A DNA stretch of 64,000 bases from Limnobacter sp. SAORIC-580 (GTDB taxonomy: Bacteria > Pseudomonadota > Gammaproteobacteria > Burkholderiales > Burkholderiaceae_B), in contig NZ_CP053084.1 in assembly GCF_013004065.1 (NCBI RefSeq), positions 3,224,001 through 3,288,000 of the forward strand, given 5' to 3'. This document shows, one piece after another, positions 7,020 through 22,667 of this stretch (positions are counted from its first letter, which is position 1; each line of letters opens with the position of its first letter). The notes beneath the pieces were generated by a model that had not been told where the DNA came from, made no database searches, and saw nothing but the letters and a program-made list of their open reading frames with translations. The translations under genes were made by a program, and so were the position numbers.

Positions 7020-8018
7020 CTATTTGACCGTTTTCGACAAACCAAAGCAATAGGCCCAATACACCAGGCCAATGAACAAATAGCCTTCCAGGTAAAAGCT
7101 GCGCCATTGCACGTCCCCTGCCAAGGCCAGGCTTAGGGCACCAGTCAATTCAAACAAGGCCACAATGGTGACCAATGAGCATTCTTTGAACAAGGTCACG
7201 AAACTGTTGATCAAGCTGGGCAAACAGGCCCGAATGGCTTGGGGCAACACCACATGCACATTGCGTTGAACCCGATTCAGGCCCAGTGCCTTGGCGGCCT
7301 GCCCCTGACCGGCTGGCACAGCCTGCAAGCCACCGCGCAACACTTCGGCCAAATAGGCGGCGCTGAACAATGCGATGGTGAATAACACACGGGTGAACAG
7401 GTCCAGCCCCTCACCCGGCAACCACAAGGGCAACACAAAAGCGGCCAGAAACAGCACTGTGACCAATGGCAAGGCTCGCAACAATTCAATGTACGTAATA
7501 CAAAACCGGCGCAGTGGTGCAAATGCAGATTGTCGCCCCAAGGCCAGCAGCACGGCCAGCGGCAGGGCCAAGGCAAAACCCACAGTGCTTAGAATGAGGG
7601 TGAGTGGCAGGCCGCCCCACAGGTTAGTGGGTACTGTGGGCAGGGCGGCAACACCACCGTGCAGCAACACCGCACTGGCAGGCAACAACAAAGCCCAAAG
7701 CGAAAAAGCGGTTTTACTTTTAAACAACCGTGCTGCCGTTGCAAACAGCAACACCGACCACAACAACAACACGATACCCGCGCGCCATTGTTCAGCCACT
7801 GGGTAACGGCCAAACAAAATAACCCGCCACTTTTCAGCCACAACACCCCAGCAGGCACCCTGCCCGGCGGCCTGTTGGCACGCTTGTAAATCGGGGCGAA
7901 ATACGGCGCTAAACACAGCCCAGTCCGCCAGTGCCCAAGCCACTGGTGCCAAAAGCAATGGCAGCGCAAGCCACAGAAAACCATTGAAAAAGCGATGAAG
8001 CAACAGGTTGGTGTTCAC
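7020..8018 (-). CDS. Amino-acid ABC transporter permease, AapM/HisM-like
   Basis: About 332 residues. Hydrophobic segments precede a C-terminal MetI-like permease domain with the EAA-type loop GGLQAVPAGQGQAAKALGLN, which docks the ATPase. The usual polar amino-acid permease signature TYIELLRALPLVTVLF precedes it. The start is placed at GTG 8018, whose GTGA overlaps the stop of the preceding permease by 4 bases, so the two are translationally coupled. The second, longer permease of AapQM/BztBC-type systems has this layout. No cognate ATPase gene follows; the next gene is a hydrolase. Confidence 0.88.
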   Translation of the reverse strand: MNTNLLLHRFFNGFLWLALPLLLAPVAWALADWAVFSAVFRPDLQACQQAAGQGACWGVVAEKWRVILFGRYPVAEQWRAGIVLLLWSVLLFATAARLFKSKTAFSLWALLLPASAVLLHGGVAALPTVPTNLWGGLPLTLILSTVGFALALPLAVLLALGRQSAFAPLRRFCITYIELLRALPLVTVLFLAAFVLPLWLPGEGLDLFTRVLFTIALFSAAYLAEVLRGGLQAVPAGQGQAAKALGLNRVQRNVHVVLPQAIRACLPSLINSFVTLFKECSLVTIVALFELTGALSLALAGDVQWRSFYLEGYLFIGLVYWAYCFGLSKTVK

Positions 8019-8842
8019 AAAGCCCCCCTGTTGACACGCGTGTTCAGCGCATTCATCAAGCCAGCAGCCACGGCGCTGAGCAGTGCGTAAGTGACCAAGA
8101 TGATCAGCACGCATTCCACCGCCTTGCCGCTTTGATTGATGGCGGTGTTGGCCACCGACACCAGTTCCGGGTAACCCACAGCCACACCCAGCGAGGCATT
8201 TTTCAGCAAATTCAAATATTGGTTGGAAAGCGAGGGCACCACCACACGCAAGGCCAAGGGCAGCACCACGTACCGGGTGGTTTGAGCATTGCTCAAGCCC
8301 AAGGCCAGCGCGCCCTGGCGCATGCCTGGCCTCACGGCCTGTACGCCCGCGCGCACTATTTCGGCAACAAAGGCGGCAGTGTAAACCACCAGCGCCAGCA
8401 GCACGGCCAGGTATTCAGGGCTAAGTACCCAGCCCCCTTCAATTGAAAAACGCCCGGGCACCGGCGCTTCCGAAAACGAGGGAAAAGCCAAACCGCTTTT
8501 GCTTAAAAACATGCTGTCACCAAACGACCAGGCTTGGCTGGCGATGGGCAAAAACTGGGTAATGGCAAAGTAAATGGCCAGCAGTTGCAACAACAATGGC
8601 ACATTGCGAAACAGGTTGATATAGCCCTTGCACAGCCCTTTCAACAAGGGGTGGTGTGCCAGTTGCCCCAATCCAATCAACAAGCCCAGAAGCGTACTAA
8701 TCAGCAAGGCAGGTAGGCCCACTTTCAAGGTGTTCAACAAACCTGCCAACAGTATTTGCCAGTAGGGCGAACTGAAGGCCACCTGCAGCCAGCCTTCACT
8801 GAGTCCAAAACCAGCGGGGTCACTGAGAAATTCAAAGTTCAC
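8015..8842 (-). CDS. Amino-acid ABC transporter permease, AapQ/HisQ-like
   Basis: About 275 residues with the His/Glu/Gln/Arg/opine permease layout: GLLNTLKVGLPALLISTLLG near the N-terminus, INLFRNVPLLLQLLAIYF, then the cytoplasmic loop AGVQAVRPGMRQGALALGLS that contacts the ATP-binding subunit. GTG 8842 is preferred over TTG 8848 because GAAGGT lies at correct spacing before it. It follows the binding-protein gene by 12 bases and overlaps the next permease by 4 bases, so the three are one operon. Probable role is inner-membrane uptake of polar or broad-range L-amino acids. Confidence 0.89.
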   Translation of the reverse strand: MNFEFLSDPAGFGLSEGWLQVAFSSPYWQILLAGLLNTLKVGLPALLISTLLGLLIGLGQLAHHPLLKGLCKGYINLFRNVPLLLQLLAIYFAITQFLPIASQAWSFGDSMFLSKSGLAFPSFSEAPVPGRFSIEGGWVLSPEYLAVLLALVVYTAAFVAEIVRAGVQAVRPGMRQGALALGLSNAQTTRYVVLPLALRVVVPSLSNQYLNLLKNASLGVAVGYPELVSVANTAINQSGKAVECVLIILVTYALLSAVAAGLMNALNTRVNRGAL

Positions 8843-8854
8843 GGGCAAGCACCT

Positions 8855-9886
8855 TCAGCGCAAAGGTGGGGCGTACATCAGCCCGCCTTGGGTCCACAGC
8901 GCATTCAAGCCCCGTTCAAGTTTCAAGGGCGATTGCTTGCCCAAATTGGCATCGAACACTTCACCGTAATTGCCCACTTGCCGAAGAATTTGTACCACCC
9001 AGTCACGCGGCAAGCCCAGTGGTTTACCCAGGTTTTCTGCACCGCCCAACAGGCGCTGAACTGCCGGGTTGTTGTTACGCAAAGCTTGATCAAGATTCGC
9101 TTTTCCAACCCCCAGTTCTTCAGCCTCAATCATGGAAAACACCACCCATTTCACGATGGCAAAAAACTCGTCATCGCCACGCAGCACCGCAGGGCCCAAA
9201 GGTTCTTTGGAAAAAACTTCAGGCAGCACCACGTAATCATCAGGCCGACCGCTTTGGCTGCTTTTCAAGCCAATCAGTGCCGACACATCAGTTGAAAATG
9301 CTTGGCAACGGCCACTGAAAAAGGCTTTGTACGCAGCCTCAAAATTGTCATACACAATGGCTTTGGCTGTAATGCCTTGCGAGCCCAAATAAGTGCTTAG
9401 GTTTTTCTCATTGGTGGTGCCCGATTGAACGCAAATCTCGGCACCTTTCAATTCTTTGGCGCTTTTTACGCCGAAGCGTTTGTGCATCAAAATGCCCTGC
9501 CCATCGTAATAGGTAATGGCGGCGAAGTGCGCGTTTAGGCCAGCATCGCGACCCAAGGTCCAGGTGGTGTTGCGGGAAAGAATGTCGATTTGCCCAGCCT
9601 GCAAAGCAGCAAAGCGCTGCTGTGAACTTAATGGGGTGAACTGTACTTTTTGTGCATCACCCAACACAGCTGCGGCCACAGCACGGCACACGGCCACGTC
9701 CAGCCCACGCCATTGTCCGTCACTACCCAGGGCCGAAAAACCAGCCACGCCACTGCTCACCCCGCAACGCACGGCATCGCGTTTGTAAATAGCATCCAGC
9801 ACCGGGCCTGCATGCACGGTGTTGGCCACCAGCAGGCAAAACAAGGTGCCCAACAAGCGTGTTGCCCGAAGTTTGAGCAGCTTCAC
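8855..9886 (-). CDS. Amino-acid ABC transporter periplasmic binding protein, AapJ-like
   Basis: 343 residues starting with a clear Sec signal peptide (MKLLKLRATRLLGTLFCLLVANTVHA, cleavage after A-x-A). The mature part has the SBP family 3 pattern: VRCGVSSGVAGFS, LDVAVCRAVAAAVLG, RFAALQAGQIDILSRNTTWT, and AEICVQSGTTNEKNL. This is the pattern of general L-amino-acid binding proteins of the Aap/Bzt type. The GTG start overlaps the stop of the upstream YdcF-like gene by 4 bases (GTGA), so the operon continues upstream. Confidence 0.9.
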   Translation of the reverse strand: MKLLKLRATRLLGTLFCLLVANTVHAGPVLDAIYKRDAVRCGVSSGVAGFSALGSDGQWRGLDVAVCRAVAAAVLGDAQKVQFTPLSSQQRFAALQAGQIDILSRNTTWTLGRDAGLNAHFAAITYYDGQGILMHKRFGVKSAKELKGAEICVQSGTTNEKNLSTYLGSQGITAKAIVYDNFEAAYKAFFSGRCQAFSTDVSALIGLKSSQSGRPDDYVVLPEVFSKEPLGPAVLRGDDEFFAIVKWVVFSMIEAEELGVGKANLDQALRNNNPAVQRLLGGAENLGKPLGLPRDWVVQILRQVGNYGEVFDANLGKQSPLKLERGLNALWTQGGLMYAPPLR

Positions 9887-10707
9887 TGACTTCCCCCTGT
9901 TTCATAAGCACCGCTTACTTTCAACTGCAGCCGGCCCAGGTATTCTTTAATCGCAACGGTGCTTTCATCCAGTGCCTGTGGCTTGGGCAACCATTCCCAG
10001 AAGGCGCGGCTTTCATTCAGCACGCGAATGTCAGTGCGCACCGGGTACACGGTAAACCCTGCTTTTTCGAACCACAACACCGAGCGCCCCATGTGAAATG
10101 CAGACGTGACCAGCGCAATAGAACGTGCACGCTCGCCCAGCAATTCGCGGGTGCGTACGGCATTCTCAAAAGTAGTTCGGGAGTTGTCTTCAATCACCAA
10201 AGCGTCTTCAGGTACCCCCATGTCCAGCATGAACATTTTCATACCAGGGGCTTCGGCTTCCTTGCGGGGATCGGTTTGAAACTGCCCACCACTCAACACG
10301 ATTCGTGGGGCTATGCCTTGCTTGTACAGTCTTGCGCCTTGCCACACACGGTCGCCGGCATCGTTCAAATCGGGTAAGGCGCGTACACCATCAAACCGCC
10401 CCTCAAGTCCACCACCCAGCACCACAATGGCATCGACCTGTGCGGGCAAGGGTCGGTTGGCTTCCAGCACCAATGCCTCATCTTCAAGCCGGCCCAACAA
10501 GCTGTCGCCTACCCATGGAAGGCTGAACGCCAGCAATTGCAGTTGTGCCAACACCAACAGATGCACACGCCACTGCCCTCGGCCAAACAGGCCCAAGCCC
10601 GCAAACACAGTCAGGGCGATCCACAACCCCAGGGGGCTTAACAGCCAGATGGCGTACTTGGTCAGCTCGGCAGCCACAGTATTCTCCGCAAATGAATCAA
10701 GAGTCAT
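9883..10707 (-). CDS. YdcF/ElyC-like DUF218 membrane protein
   Basis: About 274 residues. Two hydrophobic segments near the N-terminus are followed by a DUF218 domain: AIVVLGGG near residue 90, then IVLSGG, EDNSRTTFENA and LVTSAFHMGRS, in the canonical order. Such proteins (ElyC, SanA, YdcF) act at the cell envelope, with roles in envelope maintenance and peptidoglycan or undecaprenyl carrier metabolism. The ATG at 10707 follows a weak ribosome site. The 3' end overlaps the amino-acid binding-protein gene by 4 bases; a functional link is not obvious. Confidence 0.83.
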   Translation of the reverse strand: MTLDSFAENTVAAELTKYAIWLLSPLGLWIALTVFAGLGLFGRGQWRVHLLVLAQLQLLAFSLPWVGDSLLGRLEDEALVLEANRPLPAQVDAIVVLGGGLEGRFDGVRALPDLNDAGDRVWQGARLYKQGIAPRIVLSGGQFQTDPRKEAEAPGMKMFMLDMGVPEDALVIEDNSRTTFENAVRTRELLGERARSIALVTSAFHMGRSVLWFEKAGFTVYPVRTDIRVLNESRAFWEWLPKPQALDESTVAIKEYLGRLQLKVSGAYETGGSQ

Positions 10708-10777
10708 TGTAGACGTGCTACCCCGCACACAAGCGCGCTACACTGCTTTCTTCGACCACTCATGCCTGCCAATTACC

Positions 10778-11251
10778 ATGCCATTTCCCAACCACCAGCT
10801 CAGCATGACCGTGCTGATGACCCCCGACATGGCCAACTTCAGCGGCAAGGTGCATGGGGGGCATATTCTGAAATTGCTCGATCAGGTGGCCTATGCCTGT
10901 GCAAGCCGGTATGCGGGCATGTATGTGGTTACGCTTTCAGTGGACAGGGTGTTGTTTCGCCAGCCCATTCGTGTGGGTGAACTGGTCACCTTTTTGGCCA
11001 GTGTCAATTACACCGGCAACACCTCCATGGAGGTGGGCATCAAAGTAGTGTCAGAAGACATTCACAAAGGCATTGCCACGCACACCAACAGTTGCTTTTT
11101 TACCATGGTGGCCATGAATGCCGATGGCACACCCGGCAAAGTGCCGCCTCTGGAGCCCCGCACCGACGAGGAAAAGAAGCGACATGCCAACGCTGAATTG
11201 CGCAAGGAATTGCGCAAAGAACATGAAGAGCGAATGAACAATTTGAAGTAG
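10778..11251 (+). CDS. Acyl-CoA thioesterase, YciA-type hotdog fold
   Basis: 157 residues, typical of single-hotdog acyl-CoA hydrolases. It carries MTPDMANFSGKVHGGHILKLLDQVA, where the Asn/His/Gly pattern and the Asp of LLDQ form the active-site helix, followed by DRVLFRQPIRVGELV. The C-terminus is a charged helix (EEKKRHANAELRKELRKEHEER). ATG 10778 is used; ATG 10805 is also possible and would trim nine residues. Cytosolic hydrolysis of medium or long acyl-CoA is expected. It is divergent from the DUF218 gene and is followed closely by the Hpt gene. Confidence 0.88.
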   Translation: MPFPNHQLSMTVLMTPDMANFSGKVHGGHILKLLDQVAYACASRYAGMYVVTLSVDRVLFRQPIRVGELVTFLASVNYTGNTSMEVGIKVVSEDIHKGIATHTNSCFFTMVAMNADGTPGKVPPLEPRTDEEKKRHANAELRKELRKEHEERMNNLK

Positions 11252-11260
11252 ACTTTGCCA

Positions 11261-11617
11261 ATGGACTTGAGCAATTTGTCGACTGAGATTGATTTGGAAA
11301 CCACGCTGGATCGCCTGTGTGGCGACTCGGCTTTGTTGCTTGAAATTCTTGATTTGTTTCTCGACGAATTCGCCACTGAACAAACCAACTTGTTGGGCCG
11401 GGTTCACGTGGGTGATTACGCAGGCTTGGCCAGCAAGGCGCACTACTTCAAGGGTGTTGCCCAAAACCTGGGCTTACTGAAATTTTTGCCTGAAGTTCAG
11501 TTGCTTGAGCAGGCAGCAAAACAAAACGATTCGACTAGCTGCGTTCAAGCACTGAATTCCCTGCATGAAATTGCATGCCGCATTTTGGCCATAAGAAAGA
11601 ACATGCAAGCTGCCTGA
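11261..11617 (+). CDS. Free-standing Hpt (histidine phosphotransfer) protein
   Basis: 118 residues, almost entirely an Hpt four-helix domain. The phosphoacceptor is His61 in KAHYFKGVAQNLG, matching the AH(x)LKG..xNLG motif of Hpt proteins. The first helices read TLDRLCGDSALLLEILDLFLDEF, also typical. It could shuttle phosphoryl groups between the hybrid kinases at 11.6-17.1 kb and a distant output regulator. It is convergent with the ethylene-receptor-like kinase, with only 7 bases between stops. TTG 11255 is an alternative start two codons upstream. Confidence 0.85.
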   Translation: MDLSNLSTEIDLETTLDRLCGDSALLLEILDLFLDEFATEQTNLLGRVHVGDYAGLASKAHYFKGVAQNLGLLKFLPEVQLLEQAAKQNDSTSCVQALNSLHEIACRILAIRKNMQAA

Positions 11618-11624
11618 AATTCGA

Positions 11625-13241
11625 TCAGGCTTTTTTCAGGTACTTGCCTAACACTTCAATCAGTTTGTCGCGGTCCAGTGGTTTGGTGAGGTAGTCATTC
11701 ATGCCAGCGTTCAGGCACTTTTTGTCCTCACCCACCATGGCATGTGCGGTCAGTGCTACCACCGGTATGTTCGGGTTCACACCTGGCACGCTACCACTCC
11801 GAATCAATGCAGTGGCCTCGTAACCGTCCATCACCGGCATTTGGCCGTCCATCAACACCAAATCAAATGGCTCTTGTGCAAGCAGGTCCACCGCTTCCTG
11901 GCCATTGTTGGTCACCTTGCTGAAAAGGCCGAGGCGCTCAAGCACTTTGCACACCACCATCTGGTTCATGGGTGCATCTTCCACCACCAGAATTTTTCCA
12001 TGAAATTGCTGCACGGGGGGTGGTATTTCAGTTTGTGTCGCGAGCGTGGGTTGGGTGGCTTGATCGGTCATGGTTTGAGCAGCCACGGTTTGCAAACCCA
12101 GTTTCAGGGAAAACACAATTTCAGTGCCACGGCCGGGCTCACTGTGCAAGCGCACTTTGCCGCCCATCAGTTCAACCATTTCCTTGACGATTGCCAAGCC
12201 AAGCCCGCTACCCTGGGCGCGGCGCGTGCTGGAGTTGTCGACCTGCGTGAATCGCTTGAACAAGTTTGTTTGATGCTCGGGTGCTATTCCAATGCCAGTG
12301 TCTTTCACAGAAAACTCAAGCACGGCTTGTTGCGCGGTTCGGGACACTTCCCGGCACACAACCTTCACATGGCCCACATCGGTAAACTTGATCGCATTGC
12401 CCACCAGATTCAACAAAATTTGACGCATGCGCACCGAATCGCCGAGGTAGGTGGTTTTGGGTAATGTCTCTGCGGGGCATTTCAGTTCAATGCCTTTGCT
12501 GTTGGCATCAAAAGCCAGTGCAGCCTCTACATCGGCGAGCACATCGGCAAGCTCGAGCGGGCTGTGCCGCAGGGTTAATTGCCCACTTTCCACTTTTGAA
12601 ATATCGAGAATGTCATTCAACAAGCTAAGCAAGGAGGCTGCGCTGCGTTTGGATGCGGCAGCAAGTTGAAGTTGTTCAGGTTTCAATTCCGTGTCGAGCA
12701 ACAGATCAAGCGTTCCCAGCACGCCGTTCATGGGGGTGCGAATTTCGTGGCTCATGTTTGCCAAAAAAGCAGCCTGCGTTTTTTGAGCCTGCAAGGCGAG
12801 TTCTTGGGACTGCCTTAGCGACGCTTCGCTTTGACGTCTCGACACAATTTCCTGTGCCAATGCGGTATTAATTTGCGTCAGTTTGCCCAGGTCAGGTAAG
12901 GCCATGATGTGTTTTAACTTGGGCAGTAAATAAATTGCAGTGGCCACTGAGACCAGAGCTGTCACAATTTTGGTAATGCCCTGTGTGTAATACAGCGGCA
13001 CCCACAAGGTGAGAATGCCCATGACATGCGTCACACCACAGGCCAGAATAAATGCAGCGAACAGATAGTAAATGGGCTGCAATTCAGCGTCGGGTCGCTT
13101 CTTGGCCACGTACACAATGCCGATTGGAATCGAGAAGTAGGCGATGGCAATCAAGAGGTCTGAAATGACGTGCATGGCCAGCAGTTGTGGATTCCACGCA
13201 ATACAAAAGCCGTGCGGCAGGTACTCGATCACATTGTTCAT
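11625..13241 (-). CDS. Hybrid histidine kinase with an ethylene-receptor-like N-terminal membrane domain
   Basis: 538 residues. Three N-terminal TM helices (about 22-45, 57-78, 84-106) match the ethylene-binding domain of plant ETR1 and cyanobacterial homologues at a constant offset of three: Asp28, Tyr35, Ile38, Pro39, Ile65, Cys68 and His72 correspond to ETR1 D25, Y32, I35, P36, I62, C65 and H69. Cys and His are the copper ligands in ETR1. There is no GAF domain; a coiled coil leads to HisKA with His165 (MSHEIRTPMN), HATPase_c, and a C-terminal receiver with Asp465 (MDGQMPVMDG). The upstream binding-protein gene ends 26 bases before it, so the two are probably an operon. The true ligand is unproven. 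Confidence 0.92.
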   Translation of the reverse strand: MNNVIEYLPHGFCIAWNPQLLAMHVISDLLIAIAYFSIPIGIVYVAKKRPDAELQPIYYLFAAFILACGVTHVMGILTLWVPLYYTQGITKIVTALVSVATAIYLLPKLKHIMALPDLGKLTQINTALAQEIVSRRQSEASLRQSQELALQAQKTQAAFLANMSHEIRTPMNGVLGTLDLLLDTELKPEQLQLAAASKRSAASLLSLLNDILDISKVESGQLTLRHSPLELADVLADVEAALAFDANSKGIELKCPAETLPKTTYLGDSVRMRQILLNLVGNAIKFTDVGHVKVVCREVSRTAQQAVLEFSVKDTGIGIAPEHQTNLFKRFTQVDNSSTRRAQGSGLGLAIVKEMVELMGGKVRLHSEPGRGTEIVFSLKLGLQTVAAQTMTDQATQPTLATQTEIPPPVQQFHGKILVVEDAPMNQMVVCKVLERLGLFSKVTNNGQEAVDLLAQEPFDLVLMDGQMPVMDGYEATALIRSGSVPGVNPNIPVVALTAHAMVGEDKKCLNAGMNDYLTKPLDRDKLIEVLGKYLKKA

Positions 13242-13267
13242 TGGCCAATCACTTGGATAAAAATCGT

Positions 13268-14260
13268 TTAGCGATACACAAAATCAACTTGATCCGATTT
13301 GTGTTCTCTCAGGAAGCTCGCATCAATATAGTTCAAATATTCGGGTTCTTTGGGCAAATTATTCTGAACGTGACCCTCGCGCATGGCCCACCTGGCTTGG
13401 CCTTGCAAGGTGCTCACCAGCGACTGTTGCAAAGTCATTCGAAAGGTGTAGTCATTCCAGTTTTTCTCGATGTGTTCCTGGCTGACCATTTTTTTTCTCA
13501 GCAGCAATGCCTGCGCCCTGGAGGGATAATCGCGAATGTAATCGACTGCCTCGCTCAAGGCTTTCATCACACCGCGCACTTGCGCCGCGTGTTTGTTTTT
13601 GAATTGGTTTCGCACACTGACATTGAAGGTTTGGGTATAAAGGCGTGGCGCATCCACTTGCACAATGTCACGGCCACCCAGTTGTAGGGCTTGTTCAGCC
13701 ATGGGTTCCCAAATCGAAATTGCATCCACCCGGCCTTGCTGCAAGGCTTGGGGAAGTTCAGATGCGGCCATGGGCACCTTAATTACCTGCTGAGGATCAA
13801 CCCCCTTGAACAACAAAAAGGTATCCATGTAATAGTGCGATGAAGATTTGGGTACATAGCCAATTCGCTTGCCAGCCAGACTCAAGCGACCGTTCTGGAG
13901 CAAGTTGCGTGACACCAGAAACTTCAGATCGTCCTTGTTGGTCACCAGGGTAGCCAGCACCGAAATCGGATTGTTGTCGTATGCAGCAAACATCACCGGC
14001 AATTCCGAAGAACTGGCAAGGTCAGCCTTTCCCTGCCCCAGAGCTTTGATGCAGTCCTGTCCACTGCTGCACTCAATCAGCACGGGATTCACTTGGTGTT
14101 TCTCGAAGAACTTTCTCTCCGTGGCCACGTACACCGGCAAAGACATGACAGTGGGCGGCACTGCAATTCGCACCACATCGGCAGCGTCTGCACTTTGAGC
14201 AGCCAAAAGCAAAGCCAGCAGCAGGGAGTAGATCCATGTGCTCAACTGAAATTGTTTCAT
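13268..14260 (-). CDS. Periplasmic substrate-binding protein paired with a histidine kinase (copy 1)
   Basis: About 330 residues with a signal peptide ending at ADA. The mature protein is a NitT/TauT/SsuA-type (NMT1-like) type II binding protein: RIAVPPTVMSLPVYVATERKFF, ADLASSSELPVMFA, GKRIGYVPKSSSHYYMD, DAISIWEP. No ABC permease or ATPase is nearby; instead it is followed 26 bases on by a hybrid kinase. It is a paralogue of the binding protein at 17.1-18.1 kb, sharing SSHYYMD.FLL..G.DP, LY.QTFN, LQQSL..T.QGQARWA and a final VDFVY. ATG 14260 is preferred over 14275. I infer a ligand-sensing rather than import role. Confidence 0.85.
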   Translation of the reverse strand: MKQFQLSTWIYSLLLALLLAAQSADAADVVRIAVPPTVMSLPVYVATERKFFEKHQVNPVLIECSSGQDCIKALGQGKADLASSSELPVMFAAYDNNPISVLATLVTNKDDLKFLVSRNLLQNGRLSLAGKRIGYVPKSSSHYYMDTFLLFKGVDPQQVIKVPMAASELPQALQQGRVDAISIWEPMAEQALQLGGRDIVQVDAPRLYTQTFNVSVRNQFKNKHAAQVRGVMKALSEAVDYIRDYPSRAQALLLRKKMVSQEHIEKNWNDYTFRMTLQQSLVSTLQGQARWAMREGHVQNNLPKEPEYLNYIDASFLREHKSDQVDFVYR

Positions 14261-14348
14261 AGCGCCTGCCCTCACGATTTAACAACTCCATGTTGCATCG
14301 ATGAGAACAACTCGCATGGGTGAATAAGGGTGATTTCAACCCCTTAGT

Positions 14349-14381
14349 TTGTTACTTTACACTAGTTCACAATTTAACATT
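14349..14381 (-). promoter_or_regulatory. Shared 33-bp upstream element, copy 1
   Basis: Plus-strand form TTGTTACTTTACACT - 7 bases - AATTTAACATT. It matches copy 2 (18174-18206) at 29 of 33 positions, the differences being confined to the 7-base centre. It ends at the stop codon of the upstream kinase gene and lies 89 bp before the start of binding-protein gene 1. A weak hairpin at 14325-14346 (TAAGGG/CCCTTA) follows it directly on the minus strand. Candidate promoter, operator or processing site common to both modules. Confidence 0.6.
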
Positions 14382-17098
14382 CAGTGTATTTGAGCTCTCA
14401 ACTTGATCTGCGCTCCCCAACGCTTTACAGCGTCCAGCACTTTGTCAATTTGCAAGGGCTTCACCAGCACTTCATCCATGCCCGCAGCCAGGGCCAACTG
14501 GTGGTCGGCCTCCATTACGCCCGCAGTTAAAGCCAGTATGGGCAGCTGCCGCAAGCCCATCTGGTCTCGCAGGTAGTGGCAGGTTTCCATGCCATCCATG
14601 TCTGGCATTTGCACATCCATCAAACACACATCCACATCGCTGTGATTAGGCTGACTAAGTACCTGAATGGCAATTTGCCCCGATTCAGCCAAAATAACTT
14701 TGGCCCCATGGGTTTCCAGAATTTTTTTCAGAATCATTAAATTCAGTTTGTGATCGTCCACTGCCAACACGGTTAAGCCAGCAAGAAACACCAACTCGTT
14801 TTGATTCAACAAACGGTTCACAGCGCTGGTCTTGCCCTGCGAATTGCCCGTGGCCTCTTGCAATACATTTTTCAAAGCCGAGAAAGAAACGGGTTTCATC
14901 AACACCGCATCAAGTTGGCCTGTGGAAAGCGGGTTTTGTACTTGCTTCACATCTTTGGGCCGCACCATCAGGGCAACCTTGGCAGATGCCGGGCTATGCG
15001 CGGCTTTCAGTTTGTCAGCCAATTCCAGCCCGCTGGTGTGGTTCAACTGGTTGTTAACCACGAACAATCGTGGCCGCTGCCCAGGGGGCAAGCTCAAAGC
15101 CTGCTCCGGGTTCAAAAAACGTTGGGGAACCACGCCGGTCCACTCCACCATTTGGGCCACACTTTCAAGTTGGGTTTGGAAACTGTCAATGACCACCACA
15201 TCGTAAGCAAACCCGGTGGCAACAGGCGCTGCGCTGGCCTGCGAATCCAGGTTCAACATCAGCGAGAATGCAAACAGGCTACCCTGCCCCGGTGCGCTCA
15301 CGGCCGATATAGTGCCGCCCATCAACTCCACCAGTTTTTGGCTCAAGGCCAAGCCAATGCCCGTGCCGCCGAAACGGCGAGAAATTGATGAATCTGCTTG
15401 GGAGAATGACTGGAATAAACGCTTCATGGCACCAGCATCCATGCCCAAACCTGTGTCTTGAACAATGAAACGCAACACGCAATGTTGGGTGTCCAGCTGA
15501 TCCAAAGTTATGCCCACCTTGACATAGCCATTCTCGGTGAACTTGATCGCATTGCCCGCCAAATTCACCAGTACCTGCCTTAGTTTGGTTTCATCACCCA
15601 CCAACTGGTCGGGCACATTGGGGGCTACAGCAACTACAAACTCGATGGGCTTGTCCGCCAGGGAACCCGTCATTAAATCAGCCAGCGAATCCATCAAGTG
15701 GCGGGCTGAGAATGGCCGGGTTTCCAACTCCATGGCACCAGCTTCAATCTTGGAAACATCCAGCACGCCACTGACCAAATCAATCAGGCCTCGGCCTGCA
15801 TTTTCAAGTTTTTCAACAAACTCCAGTTGAGATGAGTCCAGCTTGCTTTGCTTCAAAATGTAAGCCAGCCCAACCACCGCATTCAGCGGCGTGCGAATTT
15901 CATGGCTGATATTGGACAGAAATTCTCCCTTGGCCTTGCTGGCCGACTCGGCCACTTCTTTGGCTCGTCGAATTTCTTCCTCAACACAGCGACGCTCGGT
16001 GATGTTCTGGAAGGCCCCCCGAATCATCCAGGGTTTGCGCTTGGTGCCTTCACCTTGCCAAATCACTTCACCAAACACATGCACCCAAATCAAGTTGCCC
16101 TTGTAGGTGCGCAACTGCAATTCCATGTTCACATCACTGCCGGTGCGGGCAGCGTCATCCAACGCTTTGGAAAGCTTCGCAGCGGATTCCTCGGGATAAA
16201 GTGCAATCGCTTCTTCCAGCGTAGGCTGATGCGTGAAGTCTGCTTCAACAATGTCGTAAATTTGTTTTGACCAACTTAACGCATGGGTGTTGACATCCAG
16301 AGTCCATGCCCCGACACCACACATTCGGCCAGCCACCTCCAGCAAGTGCGTGGTCGATGTTAAATCGGCCAGTCTGTTGTTGAGTTCAAGGGCCAGTGAA
16401 TCGAGCGCTGCGGCCACATCACCAAGTTCATCGCCTTCCGGCAAATTGCAACGTGCATTCAAATTTCCCGCGCGCATTGCATTGGCCACATTTTCAATTT
16501 GCGCAAGCGGCCTAACCACCCGATAACGAATCAAAAGCAACAACAAGAAAGAATTCGCAGTAAACAACACAGCGAAAATGAACAGGATATTTCTGCGCTT
16601 CTGTGTCAGGGCCTCCTGCAGTGAAAACGCAGCATCTGAGACTTTGTAACTCAGTTCCGCAAGTTGCTCAGCCTCGGAAATCAAACGGTCGGTCAACACA
16701 CTGCTGCGCCTTTCGTCCAAATCAATTTCCTGAGAAGTCAGCATGTGCGAAAAACCACTGAACAGGGCTGCAAAGTCGCTAAGTCGCTCCTCCAGCCTGG
16801 TGGAAATTTCTCCGCTCTCATCCGAAAAATGAAGGTGATCAAGCTCATCGGCAATCGATTGATGCACCACCCACCACTGGCGAATATTGGTCTCGGTCAT
16901 GTAGGTCGATGCAGTGTGCGTCAACACCAGCATACGCGTGGACAAGCGGGAAATTTTGCGCGCAGCAACGCTTTGTTCCAGCACGTCATTGCGTTGCTGG
17001 TTAATGGAAACGACTGTGGCCGTTGCCACCAGGACAAGGCCAATTAGCAAAACCAAGGCGATGAATACGCCTTGTTTAAGTCGCAACAAAGGTTTCAT
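14381..17098 (-). CDS. Hybrid histidine kinase with periplasmic sensor, PAS and two receivers
   Basis: 905 residues. TM1 about 10-32, a helical periplasmic domain of about 135 residues, TM2 about 170-190, HAMP, then PAS/PAC (about 250-370, ending IRGAFQNITERR). HisKA has His399 (ISHEIRTPLN); HATPase_c shows DTGLGMDAG and GGTGIGLALS. A first receiver-like domain has lost the phospho-Asp site (RLFVVNNQLN) and is probably inactive; the second is canonical with Asp828 (MDVQMPDMDG) and LVKP. Its ATG overlaps the stop of binding-protein gene 2 by 4 bases, so sensor protein and kinase are translationally coupled. The periplasmic domain is the likely docking site for that protein. Confidence 0.92.
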   Translation of the reverse strand: MKPLLRLKQGVFIALVLLIGLVLVATATVVSINQQRNDVLEQSVAARKISRLSTRMLVLTHTASTYMTETNIRQWWVVHQSIADELDHLHFSDESGEISTRLEERLSDFAALFSGFSHMLTSQEIDLDERRSSVLTDRLISEAEQLAELSYKVSDAAFSLQEALTQKRRNILFIFAVLFTANSFLLLLLIRYRVVRPLAQIENVANAMRAGNLNARCNLPEGDELGDVAAALDSLALELNNRLADLTSTTHLLEVAGRMCGVGAWTLDVNTHALSWSKQIYDIVEADFTHQPTLEEAIALYPEESAAKLSKALDDAARTGSDVNMELQLRTYKGNLIWVHVFGEVIWQGEGTKRKPWMIRGAFQNITERRCVEEEIRRAKEVAESASKAKGEFLSNISHEIRTPLNAVVGLAYILKQSKLDSSQLEFVEKLENAGRGLIDLVSGVLDVSKIEAGAMELETRPFSARHLMDSLADLMTGSLADKPIEFVVAVAPNVPDQLVGDETKLRQVLVNLAGNAIKFTENGYVKVGITLDQLDTQHCVLRFIVQDTGLGMDAGAMKRLFQSFSQADSSISRRFGGTGIGLALSQKLVELMGGTISAVSAPGQGSLFAFSLMLNLDSQASAAPVATGFAYDVVVIDSFQTQLESVAQMVEWTGVVPQRFLNPEQALSLPPGQRPRLFVVNNQLNHTSGLELADKLKAAHSPASAKVALMVRPKDVKQVQNPLSTGQLDAVLMKPVSFSALKNVLQEATGNSQGKTSAVNRLLNQNELVFLAGLTVLAVDDHKLNLMILKKILETHGAKVILAESGQIAIQVLSQPNHSDVDVCLMDVQMPDMDGMETCHYLRDQMGLRQLPILALTAGVMEADHQLALAAGMDEVLVKPLQIDKVLDAVKRWGAQIKLRAQIH

Positions 17099-18084
17099 GG
17101 GTACACAAAATCAACGGCGTTGGGTTTTATTTTTCGCAATAGACTGGAATCAATGAAATTCAAGAACTCGGGTTCGGCCAAGGCTGAGCCAACATGCCCT
17201 TCACGCCGAGCCCATCGGGCCTGACCCTGCACGGTAGTCAACAAGGACTGCTGCAAGGTCAGCTCGAACTGATAGGTGGACCAGGCTGCTTTTACTGTGT
17301 CAAGATCAATACCCACATCACGTGCCAGTATTCGTTTGGCCTCGTCGGGATTCTTCTTGATAAATTGAATTGCCTCATCCAGCGCGCCTAACACGGCAAT
17401 CGATTTGCGGGTTTGTGCCAAGCGGTATTCGTTGCTAACCAGCAGGTTGAAGGTTTGGCTGTACAGTTTGGGCGTATCAATTACCGCAACATCTGCGCCG
17501 CCTAGCTCCAGTGCAATATGCCCCCAGGGTTCCCACACCGAAATTGCATCCACCTCGCCTTTGGCCAAGGCAGCCGCCAAGGCCTCTGGCCCCATGGGCA
17601 CCGGTACTGTGGTTTTAGGGTCAATGCCGTTGTACAACAAAAACAAATCCATGTAGTAATGGGAAGAGGCCTTTTCCACATAACCAATTCGCTTGCCAGT
17701 CAAACCCTTGGTGCCACCTTTCACCGCCGCCTTCCGAACCACGAATTTCATGTCGTCTTTGTTGGTGTTGAAAGTGGTCACCAGGCCAATTGGTTTGCCT
17801 TGAAAAACCGCAAACATGAATGGCAGTTCTGAAGAAGTGGCCATGTCGACCCGCCCCTCCGTCAGTTCCTTCACACACCGGTTGCCACCCAGGCATTCAA
17901 TCAACACCGGCTCAACCTTGTGCTTTGCAAACAGGTTTTTGTCTTTGGCCACAAAAAATGGCAAAGATAACGGCGATTTGGACACTGCAATGCGTGGCTC
18001 ACTGGCCCATCCCAAGGAAGACAAGCCCATGAATGCACAAAACATGACGGTGGAGAAACGCGCAAGACGCAGGCGACTGAACAT
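17095..18084 (-). CDS. Periplasmic substrate-binding protein coupled to a histidine kinase (copy 2)
   Basis: 329 residues with a signal peptide (cleavage near GWASE). Same NMT1/SsuA-type fold and same motifs as the copy at 13.3 kb: PRIAVSKSPLSLPFFVAKDKNLF, DMATSSELPFMFA, GKRIGYVEKASSHYYMD, DAISVWEPWG, and terminal NAVDFVYP. There is no transporter gene nearby. The stop overlaps the kinase start by 4 bases, a strong sign that the two proteins work together, as in LuxP/LuxQ or TorT/TorS. In family members an anionic or aromatic small molecule is bound; the ligand here is unknown. Confidence 0.87.
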   Translation of the reverse strand: MFSRLRLARFSTVMFCAFMGLSSLGWASEPRIAVSKSPLSLPFFVAKDKNLFAKHKVEPVLIECLGGNRCVKELTEGRVDMATSSELPFMFAVFQGKPIGLVTTFNTNKDDMKFVVRKAAVKGGTKGLTGKRIGYVEKASSHYYMDLFLLYNGIDPKTTVPVPMGPEALAAALAKGEVDAISVWEPWGHIALELGGADVAVIDTPKLYSQTFNLLVSNEYRLAQTRKSIAVLGALDEAIQFIKKNPDEAKRILARDVGIDLDTVKAAWSTYQFELTLQQSLLTTVQGQARWARREGHVGSALAEPEFLNFIDSSLLRKIKPNAVDFVYP

Positions 18085-18147
18085 GGGGGCTTGAAATCAA
18101 AGTGATAACTCACCCACAGTGCGCGTTTTGCAAGGAAGCAATCGAAG

Positions 18148-18172
18148 AAAAAGGGGGCTTTCGCCCCCTTTT
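18148..18172 (-). terminator. Rho-independent terminator downstream of the acylase gene
   Basis: Minus-strand stem AAAAGGGGGC / GCCCCCTTTT (10 bp) with a GAAA tetraloop and a T run. It lies 45 bases after the acylase stop and also between the 33-bp element and binding-protein gene 2, so it could instead act as an attenuator for that gene. Confidence 0.85.
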
Positions 18173-18173
18173 A

Positions 18174-18206
18174 TTGTTACTTTACACTTATTGTCAATTT
18201 AACATT
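18174..18206 (-). promoter_or_regulatory. Shared 33-bp upstream element, copy 2
   Basis: Plus-strand form TTGTTACTTTACACT - 7 bases - AATTTAACATT, 90 bp before the start of binding-protein gene 2 and immediately ahead of the terminator hairpin in the direction of transcription. On the minus strand it contains TTGACA and flanking TGTTAC/GTAACA arms. See copy 1 at 14349-14381. Confidence 0.6.
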
Positions 18207-18216
18207 TGTAACACGC

Positions 18217-20937
18217 TCAGTTTGACGCCCTTTGCTGGCGTAACACCTTGGTTTGACCCACTTTGGCCGCCTGAATTTGAGCATCGGTGTAAGGCAAACG
18301 AGCCCAGTTTTTCTGGGAATACGCCTTGGTGTAATCGTCAAAGTGCGGATTGGCTGGGTCAGTCGAGAGTGAATAGGTCAACATGGCGTCGGCCTGTGGT
18401 TTGCCATTCGCATCCCAGGTCACAGCCTGAATGTAGCTGTTGCCGTACGTAACTTTGTAGCCTTCAGAATTCAGACGGCTTGGTTCTGTACTCACAATCG
18501 TAAACGCACCTTCAGGGCTTGTACCCCCGAAAATTGGCGTGGCACTGGCCTGTACTCCAGATTTTTGAATATTGCCCAAAGGCTCGTCCAGCGCAAAACC
18601 AGCGGCTTGTACCGCCAAAATTGCATCGGCCAAAGCAGCTGAGGTAAACGGATTGGCAATGTTCAATGTGTTGGGTGTGTTCACCGGGTCAACCGCATTG
18701 AAGCCATTGGCCCACAAATTGGTTGGCAATGACAATGGCACTGGCACATCAAACGGCAAATGCAGTTGAGGCACGCCCACAGGCAAACCACCAGGGTTGG
18801 CAATCGCCCGGCTCCAAAACTCACGCCACAAGTGTGCACCTTTGCTATCCAGGTTGGCTTTGCCATCCCAAGCACCCAAAGCGGCACAAGCGTCCGCGGT
18901 TTGCACTGGCATCAAGCTGGTACTCAACAACACGGGTACTTGGCACAGCGCATCCACCACCGATTGCTTGGCCAAAGTAGCGGAATAAATTTCGCTGTTC
19001 AGCGCAATGTCTTTCAGGTTGTCTTGCGTAAAACGGTTGCCGGGCAGTCCATCAGCCCCGCCCAAACGGCGTTCCGCTTGCAGGGTGCACAAGCGGGTAC
19101 GCAAGGTACGCTCCGCATTTTCATCACCAATAATCCGGTTAAAACCAGTCAGCGGCTGACGTGGGTTGCTCAGCCAGTGGCTGTCGTTGCAGTTGGTTAC
19201 ATAATCGTCACGCTGAAGCGTGGGCAAGTTACCCGGGCCAAAAATGCCGGGCGCGGGTGCATCGGGGTCACTACCCCACTCGCAGGCTTCGCGTGAGCCA
19301 TTGAGCACAGGTAAACCTGGTGACAACTGACCCACCACCGTGTTGAAAGGTTCTGCTGCACAATCGGCAATTTTTTCATCGGTCACATGCGGCACCACAG
19401 TCACGTCACCATAGTAAGCAGGCCTGCCCGGGCCACTGGCCACGGTGTTTACCCAAGGCACACCCAGTTCACTACCGTGCAAGCCGATAAACTCTTCCAG
19501 GGATTTGGCAAGGTTCCACTTGGCAAACTGGTTGATTAGTCGGTCATTCTCCAGGTTTGCATCGCGAAGCGTAAATGCCATCAACTGGTTCCAGCCTAGC
19601 ACCGGCACTCCGCTGGCCTCCAGCACCAACATCGGCCCATAATGACTGCGATACATGGTGCGCTGCATTTTCGTAATGCTGCCATCGGCCTGCTTCACCT
19701 CAATTTCAGTGGGCAGGGCGATCATGTCGCGCATCTCACCCTCGTACATGTACTGAGTGGGGTTGGCCGGGTTGATTTGCAACTGGTAAAGCGTAAAGCG
19801 GAAAGCAGTTGAAACCGTGTGGCTCCAGGCCACGTGCTCGTTAAAACCAATCAACACCGCGGGCACGCCATAAAGGCCCACACCCATGATGTCCATGGCC
19901 TTTTCGCCATTCAGTTCAAGAATATTGTGGCTTAGGTACAAACGCTCTGTACCCTTCCATGGAAAGTGGGGGTTGCCGTACACCAGCGACTGGCCATTGG
20001 CGGTTGCGTCTTTGCCAAACGCGTACATATTGCTACCGAAGTGATCCTTGTTCTGCATGGCAGTGAAAGGGTTCGGGTTCGCCTTCAGCAAAGCCACTTG
20101 CTCGGCAACGCCGGGGGTTTTGGCTTTTTTACCCGCACTGGCTACAGGTAACGCAGGGGCTCCACCGCCCGCAGGCAAACCGGGCAACACACCCGGTGGC
20201 TGTGCATTGCCAATTTCAGTCACAAACACCGAGCTGCTGGCCAACACAGCCAGGCGCACAAAGCGGCGATACATGTCGTCTGTCGTAATTGGGGCCAGCC
20301 ATTCAGCATCAGCACAAGCGGCATGCGCGGGCACCTTGCTGCCATCGGGCTGTTCATACTCATGCTCGCCTGCTTTCAATTCTGTAATGTAGCGGTTCAC
20401 GCCATCGGCATAACCGGCCACTACGTTCTGAAAATCGGGAATGGTCTTGTCGCGGGTGCGCTGCCAGGCATTGCGGGTAATTCCATCAGCGCCTTCTTCT
20501 TCAAAGGCAAAAAGGCTTTTCCAGAAGAAGTCGCTGGCCACGTTGTTGGCCGTCGAGCCATTGGGCTCAATGGTGTAGGTGCCGTCGGGGCCAAAGAAGC
20601 GTGAACGCTCGCCTCGAATGGTCAACAGGTCCTCAAGAAATACGCAGAGGTTGTCTTGCGCAAAGGCGTAACCTTGCCCATAACCCAAGCTGCCGTAATC
20701 CTTGGCTCGAATGTGCGGCACACCGAAAGTGGTGCGGGTAATGCTCACATCGTATTTCAGGTTGGGATTCTCGTTGGGATTGGTTCGCCCATCGGTGCCA
20801 GCAATGTCGTTGTTGTTGCTGCCCAGGCAACCCGCCAACATCAACAGGGCAGCACTGGCTGCGCCCACCTGTAGACCACGCCGCAACGCGGCCTTGTTCG
20901 TCAAGCCTGTAATCACTGCTGTCTCCTCTGCTTTCAT
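18217..20937 (-). CDS. Penicillin-acylase-family (Ntn hydrolase) lipoprotein, possible AHL or aculeacin acylase
   Basis: 906 residues. After a hydrophobic stretch the lipobox LMLAGC (Cys37) predicts an outer-membrane or periplasmic lipoprotein. The family order is present: ITRTTFGVPHIRAKDYGSLGYGQGYAFAQDN for the alpha chain, then the autoprocessing site HFG/SNMYAFG with nucleophile Ser302, GNPHFPW, IGFNEHVAWSHT and YRSHYGPML in the beta chain. Relatives (PvdQ, QuiP, AAC) hydrolyse acyl-homoserine lactones, aculeacin or penicillins; the substrate here cannot be assigned. It is single-gene, with its own terminator, and divergent from mmsA with two palindromic operators between them. Confidence 0.87.
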   Translation of the reverse strand: MKAEETAVITGLTNKAALRRGLQVGAASAALLMLAGCLGSNNNDIAGTDGRTNPNENPNLKYDVSITRTTFGVPHIRAKDYGSLGYGQGYAFAQDNLCVFLEDLLTIRGERSRFFGPDGTYTIEPNGSTANNVASDFFWKSLFAFEEEGADGITRNAWQRTRDKTIPDFQNVVAGYADGVNRYITELKAGEHEYEQPDGSKVPAHAACADAEWLAPITTDDMYRRFVRLAVLASSSVFVTEIGNAQPPGVLPGLPAGGGAPALPVASAGKKAKTPGVAEQVALLKANPNPFTAMQNKDHFGSNMYAFGKDATANGQSLVYGNPHFPWKGTERLYLSHNILELNGEKAMDIMGVGLYGVPAVLIGFNEHVAWSHTVSTAFRFTLYQLQINPANPTQYMYEGEMRDMIALPTEIEVKQADGSITKMQRTMYRSHYGPMLVLEASGVPVLGWNQLMAFTLRDANLENDRLINQFAKWNLAKSLEEFIGLHGSELGVPWVNTVASGPGRPAYYGDVTVVPHVTDEKIADCAAEPFNTVVGQLSPGLPVLNGSREACEWGSDPDAPAPGIFGPGNLPTLQRDDYVTNCNDSHWLSNPRQPLTGFNRIIGDENAERTLRTRLCTLQAERRLGGADGLPGNRFTQDNLKDIALNSEIYSATLAKQSVVDALCQVPVLLSTSLMPVQTADACAALGAWDGKANLDSKGAHLWREFWSRAIANPGGLPVGVPQLHLPFDVPVPLSLPTNLWANGFNAVDPVNTPNTLNIANPFTSAALADAILAVQAAGFALDEPLGNIQKSGVQASATPIFGGTSPEGAFTIVSTEPSRLNSEGYKVTYGNSYIQAVTWDANGKPQADAMLTYSLSTDPANPHFDDYTKAYSQKNWARLPYTDAQIQAAKVGQTKVLRQQRASN

Positions 20938-20949
20938 TCTGGGCCCACC

Positions 20950-20974
20950 TTAGTGACAGGCCTTATGTCAGTAA
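20950..20974. promoter_or_regulatory. Palindromic operator 1 in the acylase-mmsA divergent region
   Basis: TTAGTGACA - 7 bases - TGTCAGTAA, arms matching at 8 of 9 positions. It lies 12 bp upstream of the acylase start and so would overlap its promoter or leader. It shares the TTACTGACA half-site with operator 2. Confidence 0.5.
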
Positions 20975-21011
20975 TACCTCCGACAATTACAATTGGATTA
21001 AAAATCAGGGC

Positions 21012-21033
21012 TTTACTGACAGGCTTCAGTAAA
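21012..21033. promoter_or_regulatory. Palindromic operator 2 in the acylase-mmsA divergent region
   Basis: TTTACTGA - 6 bases (CAGGCT) - TCAGTAAA is a perfect inverted repeat. Its TTACTGACA core matches the right arm of operator 1 in inverted orientation, and the two centres are about 60 bp apart, six helical turns. A shared dimeric repressor for both divergent genes is likely; no regulator gene is adjacent. Confidence 0.55.
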
Positions 21034-21155
21034 TTGCCAGTGCATGGTGCGCTCATCGAAAATTTCCGGAAGCTTGGTGTTAGCACCGATTCAATCCACC
21101 CCGTGCTTGCGCGACAATGTCAGTCTTTCCGAAGCAAACAAGCAGGCCCAGACAC

Positions 21156-22667
21156 ATGCAACCCTACAAAAACGATCAAACTGTCGCCCACTTCATCAAC
21201 GGCAATTCCGTGAGCGTGGCTGGCAGCAAAACAGCCAATGTATTCAACCCGTCGCTGGGCAGGGTCGCCCGCCAGGTTGAGCTGGCCGATGTAGCCACTG
21301 TGAACAAAGCCGTGGAAGCTGCCAAAGCAGCATTGCCAGCCTGGGCCAACAAGCCGCCGCTTCAGCGCGTGCGCATCATGAACAAATTTTTGGCCTTGAT
21401 GAACCAGCACCGCGACGAACTGGCCGCCATCATCACGGCCGAGCACGGCAAAGTATTCACCGATGCGCAGGGCGAGGTTAGCCGTGGCATCGACATCATT
21501 GAATTTGCCTGCGGCATTCCGCAATTGCTCAAGGGCGACTACACCGAACAGGTTTCCACCAACATCGACAACTGGACCCTGCGCCAGCCTGTGGGCGTGG
21601 TGGCCGGCATTACCCCGTTCAACTTCCCCTGCATGGTGCCGTGCTGGATGTTCCCCGTGGCGATTGCCTGCGGCAATACCTTCATTCTGAAACCCAGCGA
21701 ACGCGACCCCAGCGCTGGCAACTTCATGGCCAGGCTGCTGAAAGAAGCCGGCCTGCCCGATGGTGTATTCAACGTGGTACACGGCGACAAACTGGCTGTG
21801 GAAACCCTGCTGAATCACCCCGATGTGGCCGCACTCAGCTTTGTGGGCTCTACCCCCATTGCCAAATTCATTTACGAAACAGGTGCCCGCAACGGCAAAC
21901 GCGTGCAAGCCCTGGGCGGCGCGAAAAACCACCTGTTGGTGATGCCCGATGCAGATCTGGACCAGGTCACTGACGCACTCATCGGTGCCGCCTACGGCAG
22001 CGCGGGTGAACGTTGCATGGCCATTTCCGTGGCTGTGATGGTGGGCGATGTGGGCGACAAGCTGATCCCCAAACTGGCCGCCCGCCTGAAAACATTGAAG
22101 GTAACAGACGGCATGGATTTGTCAGCTGAGATGGGGCCAATCGTGACCGCCGAGGCATTGAAGCGCATTGAGGACTACGTCCAAATTGGCGTGGACGAAG
22201 GCGCCACACTGGTGGTGGATGGTCGCGGCCAAAAACCAGCCGGTTTCGAAACTGGCTTTTACACCGGCGGCACTTTGTTCGACCACGTCAAGCCCAACAT
22301 GCGCATTTATCTGGAAGAAATTTTCGGGCCCGTGCTCAGCTGCGTGCGCGTGGCCAACTTTGCAGAAGGCCTGGATTTGATCAACAGCCACCAATACGGC
22401 AACGGCGTAAGCTGCTACACCCGCGACGGCAATGTGGCCCGCGAATTTGGCCGTCAGGTGCAAGTGGGCATGGTAGGCATCAACGTGCCCATTCCTGTGC
22501 CAATGGCATGGCACGGCTTCGGCGGCTGGAAGGCAAGCCTGTTCGGCGACATGCATGCGTACGGCGAAGAAGGTGTTCGCTTCTACACCCGCCAGAAATC
22601 CATCATGCAGCGCTGGCCAGACAGCATCGAGAAAGGTGCTGAATTCGTCATGCCCACCTCGAAATAA
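21156..22667 (+). CDS. mmsA: Methylmalonate-semialdehyde dehydrogenase (CoA-acylating)
   Basis: About 503 residues, the family length. The N-terminus [28 protein letters not shown], the NAD site segment [23 protein letters not shown], and the catalytic motif [11 protein letters not shown] with Cys287 identify the MmsA/IolA family rather than ordinary aldehyde dehydrogenases. It converts (methyl)malonate semialdehyde to propionyl- or acetyl-CoA, using CoA and NAD+, in valine, beta-alanine or inositol breakdown. ATG 21156 is preferred to 21117 by comparison with usual N-termini. No other valine-pathway genes are adjacent. Confidence 0.9.

Follow-up and report, generated by a model that had tools for sequence, protein, structure and literature searches.

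A Limnobacter locus with signalling-associated NMT1/SsuA-type binding proteins and an ethylene-receptor-like kinase, probably two separate modules

A locus at 11255..18206 in the window (the 64,000-nt stretch of the Limnobacter sp. SAORIC-580 genome analysed here) encodes two substrate-binding proteins (SBP1 and SBP2), two hybrid kinases (HK1 and HK2), and a stand-alone histidine phosphotransfer (Hpt) protein. The results demonstrate that the locus is real and conserved, that the idea of ligand sensing by the binding proteins is well supported, and that the idea of two equal SBP-kinase pairs is not. We propose that it probably consists of two independent signalling modules lying side by side, a sensor formed by the SBPs and HK2 and a relay formed by HK1 and the Hpt protein. 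A first-pass annotation of the same DNA had read it as two equal pairs that sense ligands through a phosphorelay ending on the separate Hpt; sensing rather than import stood, the equal pairs did not, and the shared end-point was weakened.

Results

Relatives of the binding proteins lie beside signalling genes

The five genes were confirmed as open frames at the positions of the first-pass annotation (Table 1), and these frames bear out the gene order, the 4-base overlap of the SBP2 and HK2 reading frames, the gap of 26 bases between SBP1 and HK1, and the convergence of Hpt and HK1. SBP2 served as the query against three genome sets, drawn from the order (399 genomes), the genus (16), and the phylum (398), and the genes around each match were inspected; the order and phylum searches scored at most 5 candidates per genome, with E-value limits of 1e-40 and 1e-38. 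Neighbours within a 3.5-kb radius were tallied for 50 SBP genes, 31 of them Limnobacter matches that are not independent; the remaining 19 rows represent 17 genomes, two rows being second tandem SBPs inside fetched loci. The control set held 20 SsuA_fam matches, one per genome; 22 non-Limnobacter genomes had such a match. ATP-binding cassette (ABC) genes were scored by tblastn with queries from 7 control loci, diguanylate cyclase (GGDEF) genes with queries from L063 and L150, and kinases with a query from the window, giving both sides queries of their own. Motif-based tagging of ABC genes was too strict, flagging just 5/20 controls, and was replaced by tblastn.

A histidine kinase was found near 40/50 SBP2 relatives and a diguanylate cyclase near 8/50, compared with an ABC ATPase plus permease near 1/50 (L071); one relative (L068) had none of these neighbours. 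The 19 non-Limnobacter rows comprised 9 with kinases, 8 with cyclases, 1 with ABC genes, and 1 with none. Locus L020 showed a kinase plus a weak GGDEF match. In contrast, an ABC ATPase and permease adjoined 17/20 control SsuA-family genes (10/13 when the 7 query loci are set aside), with a kinase near 1/20 and none near 2/20. Regular occurrence of homologues beside SsuB/SsuC genes had been named beforehand as the outcome that would speak against sensing, and the comparison (1/50 versus 17/20) went the other way. The 3.5 kb on either side of SBP1 and SBP2 showed no ABC ATPase and no SsuC-type permease, in agreement with the first-pass annotation; the ABC system at 7020-9886 (-), made up of an SBP_bac_3 protein and two BPD permeases, is of amino-acid type, belongs to another family, and is unrelated to the locus. 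Because a kinase, not a transporter, adjoins them, the binding proteins probably sense a dissolved compound, and a sensing role of the SBP family appears well supported by these neighbourhoods.

We also considered that the SBPs could be orphan importer subunits for an ABC transporter encoded elsewhere, the neighbouring kinases merely regulating uptake. The nearest solved folds to the SBPs, the importer binding proteins TauA and SsuA, together with the ABC genes beside L071 and the fact that one SBP can serve both sensing and uptake, weigh in this direction and against a sensing role. However, 48/50 relatives lie by kinases or cyclases and a single one by ABC genes, and the SBP is retained even where a cyclase has taken the place of the kinase as partner, which makes this the least probable of the alternatives weighed here.

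The claim that the two binding proteins are NMT1/SsuA-type paralogues was confirmed by profile scores, sequence identity, and phylogeny. Their NMT1/THI5-like matches scored 72 and 79 bits, and their SsuA_fam matches 110 and 101 bits, under the model cut-off of 163.5; most control SsuA_fam matches listed likewise score below that cut-off. SBP1 and SBP2 are ~48% identical and form sister clades (95/95) in the tree, with support of 100/100 for SBP1 and 98/97 for SBP2. SBP1 is identical to the SBP2-type sequence P0062 at 46/46 near-invariant family columns.

Within the class but beyond the order, 8 genomes (L061-L067, L069) encode an SBP2 relative whose gene overlaps a GGDEF gene or lies directly beside it, and a HAMP domain was shown for one SBP-linked GGDEF protein (L063). 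No natural SBP-kinase fusion related to SBP2 was found at E<=0.001 among 7994 candidates scored. A cysteine pair, C-x5-C (ECLGGNRC), at SBP2 residues ~64-70 recurs in many family members, including Vibrio ones (alignment A2), and could possibly form a disulfide. Database matches of SBP2 include proteins of Vibrio and Shewanella. The SAORIC-580 genome encodes a third SBP-kinase pair (L010 7783-11028), near a fatty-acid desaturase gene. Databases that give these SBPs a name use 'ABC transporter substrate-binding protein', a label that would mislead metabolic models.

HK2 carries a periplasmic helical bundle and travels with the binding proteins

HK2 comprises two transmembrane helices around a ~140-aa periplasmic helical bundle, followed by HAMP, a weak PAS, HisKA (H399), HATPase, and two receiver-type regions; no Hpt match was found in the domain search. 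The C-terminal receiver is intact (D828). The first receiver-like stretch (residues ~632-750) seems to lack the phospho-acceptor Asp in a motif search (FVVN at 679) and is likely a pseudo-receiver. The HK2 model aligns to both LytSN and TorS, although helical bundles match widely. The bundle is common to most partner kinases of the SBP relatives, and the partner cyclases probably carry it as well.

To follow the modules across the genus, we examined, in 11 Limnobacter genomes, the interval bounded by the PvdQ-like gene on one side and the thioesterase/DUF218 genes on the other, accepting Hpt orthologues at E<1e-20. Five other genomes lie outside this count: G404 and G405 (<90% complete), G003, G400, and G410. 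All five genes are present in G000, G402, G403, G408, and G399, and SBP1 is absent from G401 and G412. In G406, HK1 has shrunk to 38 codons and Hpt is gone; G407 has SBP2-HK2 alone. HK1-Hpt occurs alone in G411 and G409, the latter retaining 51 codons of HK2. Thus, SBP2 and HK2 occur together in 9/9 genomes, as do HK1 and Hpt (9/9), and SBP1 is always with SBP2-HK2 (6/6) and never with HK1-Hpt alone (0/2). Since SBP1 and SBP2 are sister clades, the missing SBP1 genes are losses. The tree places the G406 loss as recent, which calls for caution in the co-loss argument.

In L021 and L022, from another family of the order, two tandem SBP genes precede one hybrid kinase; the tree indicates that these tandem SBPs stem from a separate duplication. 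Together with the co-loss pattern, this arrangement argues that SBP1 works with HK2.

HK1 has an ethylene-receptor-like membrane domain

The N-terminal domain of HK1, which recalls a plant-type ethylene receptor and which the first-pass annotation had missed, matches Pfam ETR1_N with 114.5 bits (E 2.8e-33, cut-off 27). It is followed by HisKA (H165), HATPase, and a receiver (D465), with no Hpt match in the domain search. The N-terminus shows three hydropathy peaks joined by short loops only and no periplasmic domain. HK1 retains D28, Y35 (which we take to be a site residue of ETR1_N), C68, H72, and K91, and the copper-site Asp, Cys, and His of ethylene receptors are thus all present. The spacing of its D, C, H, and K residues equals that of AzoEtr1 D35, C75, H79, and K98. 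The AzoEtr1 report aligns D35 and C75 with residues of plant ETR1 at which mutation abolishes ethylene binding (PMC11819568). Among 31 ETR1_N sequences (12 from Limnobacter, 19 others), the Cys is conserved in 31, the His in 30, the Asp in 26, and the Lys in 25. From these residues, the HK1 membrane domain presumably binds copper, and we infer that ethylene or copper could be the HK1 input.

At E<=0.001, ETR1_N matched in 22 of the 300 genomes searched from the order (20 exceed the cut-off), and ETR1_N kinases occur in 12/16 Limnobacter genomes searched; the domain is therefore widespread and not itself new. A linkage check covered 19 of the 21 non-Limnobacter matches, leaving out two below the cut-off, and no SBP relative (tblastn E<=0.01) lay near ETR1_N in any of these 19 loci, fetched at 8-14 kb. 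More distant ETR1_N kinases, without a close Hpt orthologue, are encoded elsewhere in G003, G400, and G410. The G003 protein (L017 13149-15134 (-)) is a hybrid kinase in which two receivers were matched, and its gene lies 4-6 kb away from an SBP-kinase pair; the close Hpt orthologue is not beside it, and a weak one is encoded on a different contig of G003. HK1 gave no phage match.

These results bear on the earlier proposal that SBP1-HK1 is a second pair of the same kind, which was not borne out: HK1 has three membrane helices and no periplasmic domain, and it stays without SBP1 in 2 genomes and without the whole SBP block in 2 more. Two parallel pairs, SBP2-HK2 and SBP1-HK1, both ending on a shared Hpt, would account for the gene order, for the short SBP1-HK1 gap, and for neither kinase having an Hpt match of its own, and to that extent these features tell against two independent modules. 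Given the HK1 topology, the four genomes with HK1 and no SBP1 (G401, G412, G409, and G411), the two with HK2 and no Hpt (G406 and G407), and the ETR1_N loci outside Limnobacter with no SBP relative nearby, we regard parallel pairs as improbable.

The stand-alone Hpt follows HK1

The relay residues are intact in a motif search (HK1 H165 and D465, HK2 H399 and D828, Hpt H63, and the ATPase boxes), and the separate Hpt gene of the first-pass annotation was confirmed. Its frame starts 3 bases (9 from the internal ATG) past the stop of a plus-strand gene ending at 11251. Because it follows this gene and converges on HK1, Hpt lies outside the kinase operon. A close Hpt orthologue stands beside HK1 in all 9/9 genomes that have it. 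We assigned Hpt to HK1 because the genome contains 7 Hpt matches and HK2 persists without this Hpt, in two genomes; a shared end-point is weakened by the same observations.

An alternative that departs from the two-module model at the Hpt step only, so that the likelihoods of the two overlap, is that both kinases converge on one Hpt and integrate solute and ethylene-like signals. Both HK1 and HK2 have a terminal receiver, lack an Hpt match, and lie beside a stand-alone Hpt, and both modules and Hpt occur together in 7/11 genomes with the interval, features that weigh against independent modules; set against this are the persistence of HK2 in G406 and G407, the several Hpt matches in the genome, and the tracking of HK1 by Hpt. 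We consider convergence doubtful, although it is the most credible of the alternatives.

Neighbouring and noncoding features

A 31-bp element, searched with a pattern built from its two window copies, was found before both SBP genes and nowhere else in the genome at <=3 mismatches, the reversed control likewise giving none. At <=5 mismatches it is kept before SBP2 in 8/9 genomes, being degenerate in G407, and before SBP1 in 6/6; scanning upstream of further Limnobacter SBP genes gave no copy. The element has outlasted a duplication after which the two proteins diverged to 48% identity, and this persistence points to a function. An RNA stem was dropped as an explanation, since its arms lose complementarity in relatives (by eye), and a search for a regulon with the 13-bp core at one mismatch stayed at chance level (4 extra versus 5 control sites).

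The SBP2 copy of the element is followed by a strong hairpin (-18.1 kcal/mol, z -4.2), which the sequence scan reported for the opposite strand alone. At the corresponding site ahead of SBP1 (~14320-14346), the hairpin is weak (-7.2 kcal/mol, z -0.6). Scans for a sigma-70-like promoter (minus strand, 11000-18400) and for Rfam families (9500-21500) gave nothing, and the whole locus had no plasmid match. The PvdQ-like gene lies upstream of the locus in 11/11 Limnobacter genomes read.

Table 1. Positions of the genes and other features in the window
Feature	Position	Strand	Description
Binding protein 2 (SBP2)	17095..18084	-	NMT1/SsuA-like, 329 aa; signal-like hydrophobic stretch at the N-terminus
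Kinase 2 (HK2)	14381..17098	-	Hybrid kinase, 905 aa
Binding protein 1 (SBP1)	13268..14275	-	NMT1/SsuA-like, 335 aa from GTG; in-frame ATG 15 bases downstream
Kinase 1 (HK1)	11625..13241	-	Hybrid kinase, 538 aa
Ethylene-receptor-like membrane domain of HK1	12900..13184	-	Residues 20-114, Pfam PF25487
Stand-alone Hpt	11255..11617	+	His at 63 in HYFKG, presumed phospho-acceptor; in-frame ATG at 11261
PvdQ-like neighbour	18217..20937	-	Penicillin-amidase family, score below the PvdQ cut-off; outside the system
31-bp element, SBP2 copy	18174..18204	-	Upstream of SBP2; TGTTAAATTG..AA..AGTGTAAAGTAACAA
31-bp element, second copy	14349..14379	-	Between the HK2 stop and SBP1
Hairpin with T-run	18149..18172	-	Probable terminator separating the PvdQ-like gene from SBP2

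Discussion

The two-module model is built on domain make-up, catalytic residues, neighbourhoods, and co-loss read from the sequence, from which we infer docking, the action of both SBPs on HK2, and phosphotransfer. In the first module, periplasmic SBP2 and its paralogue SBP1, with a TauA/SsuA-like fold, would bind a small solute and dock on the HK2 periplasmic helical bundle, altering kinase activity. Phosphate would then pass from H399 to the C-terminal receiver of HK2 and on to an Hpt, probably one encoded elsewhere. In the second, the ethylene-receptor-like and presumably copper-binding membrane domain would drive HK1 (H165 to its receiver), and the receiver would hand the phosphate to Hpt H63 and thence to a response regulator. 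A bolder picture seems to us unlikely: two paralogues of a signalling NMT1-type SBP family would compete for one kinase and be coupled to the ethylene-receptor-like kinase, and a single Hpt would receive phosphate from both kinases, allowing solute and gas (or copper) to be read together.

A branch of the nitrate/sulfonate/taurine binding proteins has apparently moved from transport to signalling; its partners are kinases in some lineages and diguanylate cyclases elsewhere, and the sensor domain seems to persist across this change. Such constancy opens both the ligand and the docking rule to direct tests. Limnobacter, an aquatic genus, carries ethylene-receptor-like kinases. Among the papers listed by our literature searches, none concerned NMT1-type SBP-kinase pairs, although an earlier description is possible since the main review of SBP signalling families was not covered, and none concerned ethylene receptors in Limnobacter. 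That SBPs act via kinases, chemoreceptors, and cyclic di-GMP (c-di-GMP) enzymes is established (PMC9602780, PMC11113362). A 2022 review states that, within the PBP clan, SBP_bac_3 alone has been studied in c-di-GMP networks (PMC8846402).

Compared with the TauA/SsuA importers, SBP1 and SBP2 have no ABC ATPase or permease beside them, and they score under the SsuA_fam cut-off. XylFII-LytS and TorT-TorS resemble the SBP-HK2 module in combining a periplasmic binding protein with a kinase that has a periplasmic helical bundle, and the HK2 model aligns to both; unlike them, the locus uses an NMT1/SsuA-family SBP, probably with two paralogues per kinase, and the relatives switch to diguanylate cyclases. 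LuxP-LuxQ is presumably similar in that an SBP and a hybrid kinase feed a separate Hpt, but we take the LuxQ sensor to be PAS-like rather than a helical bundle, and the ligand and SBP family to differ. In NspS-MbaA, an SBP signals through a c-di-GMP enzyme in the membrane, a mode that the SBP-GGDEF pairs here would share; NspS senses polyamines and belongs to another SBP family, whereas the window uses a kinase. AzoEtr1 and SynEtr1 share with HK1 an N-terminal three-helix domain with copper-site residues, and they signal from kinase to response regulator, as HK1 would. AzoEtr1 combines PAS and kinase domains with an adjacent single-domain regulator, whereas the HK1 kinase is hybrid, carrying a receiver, and its Hpt is encoded by a separate, convergent gene.

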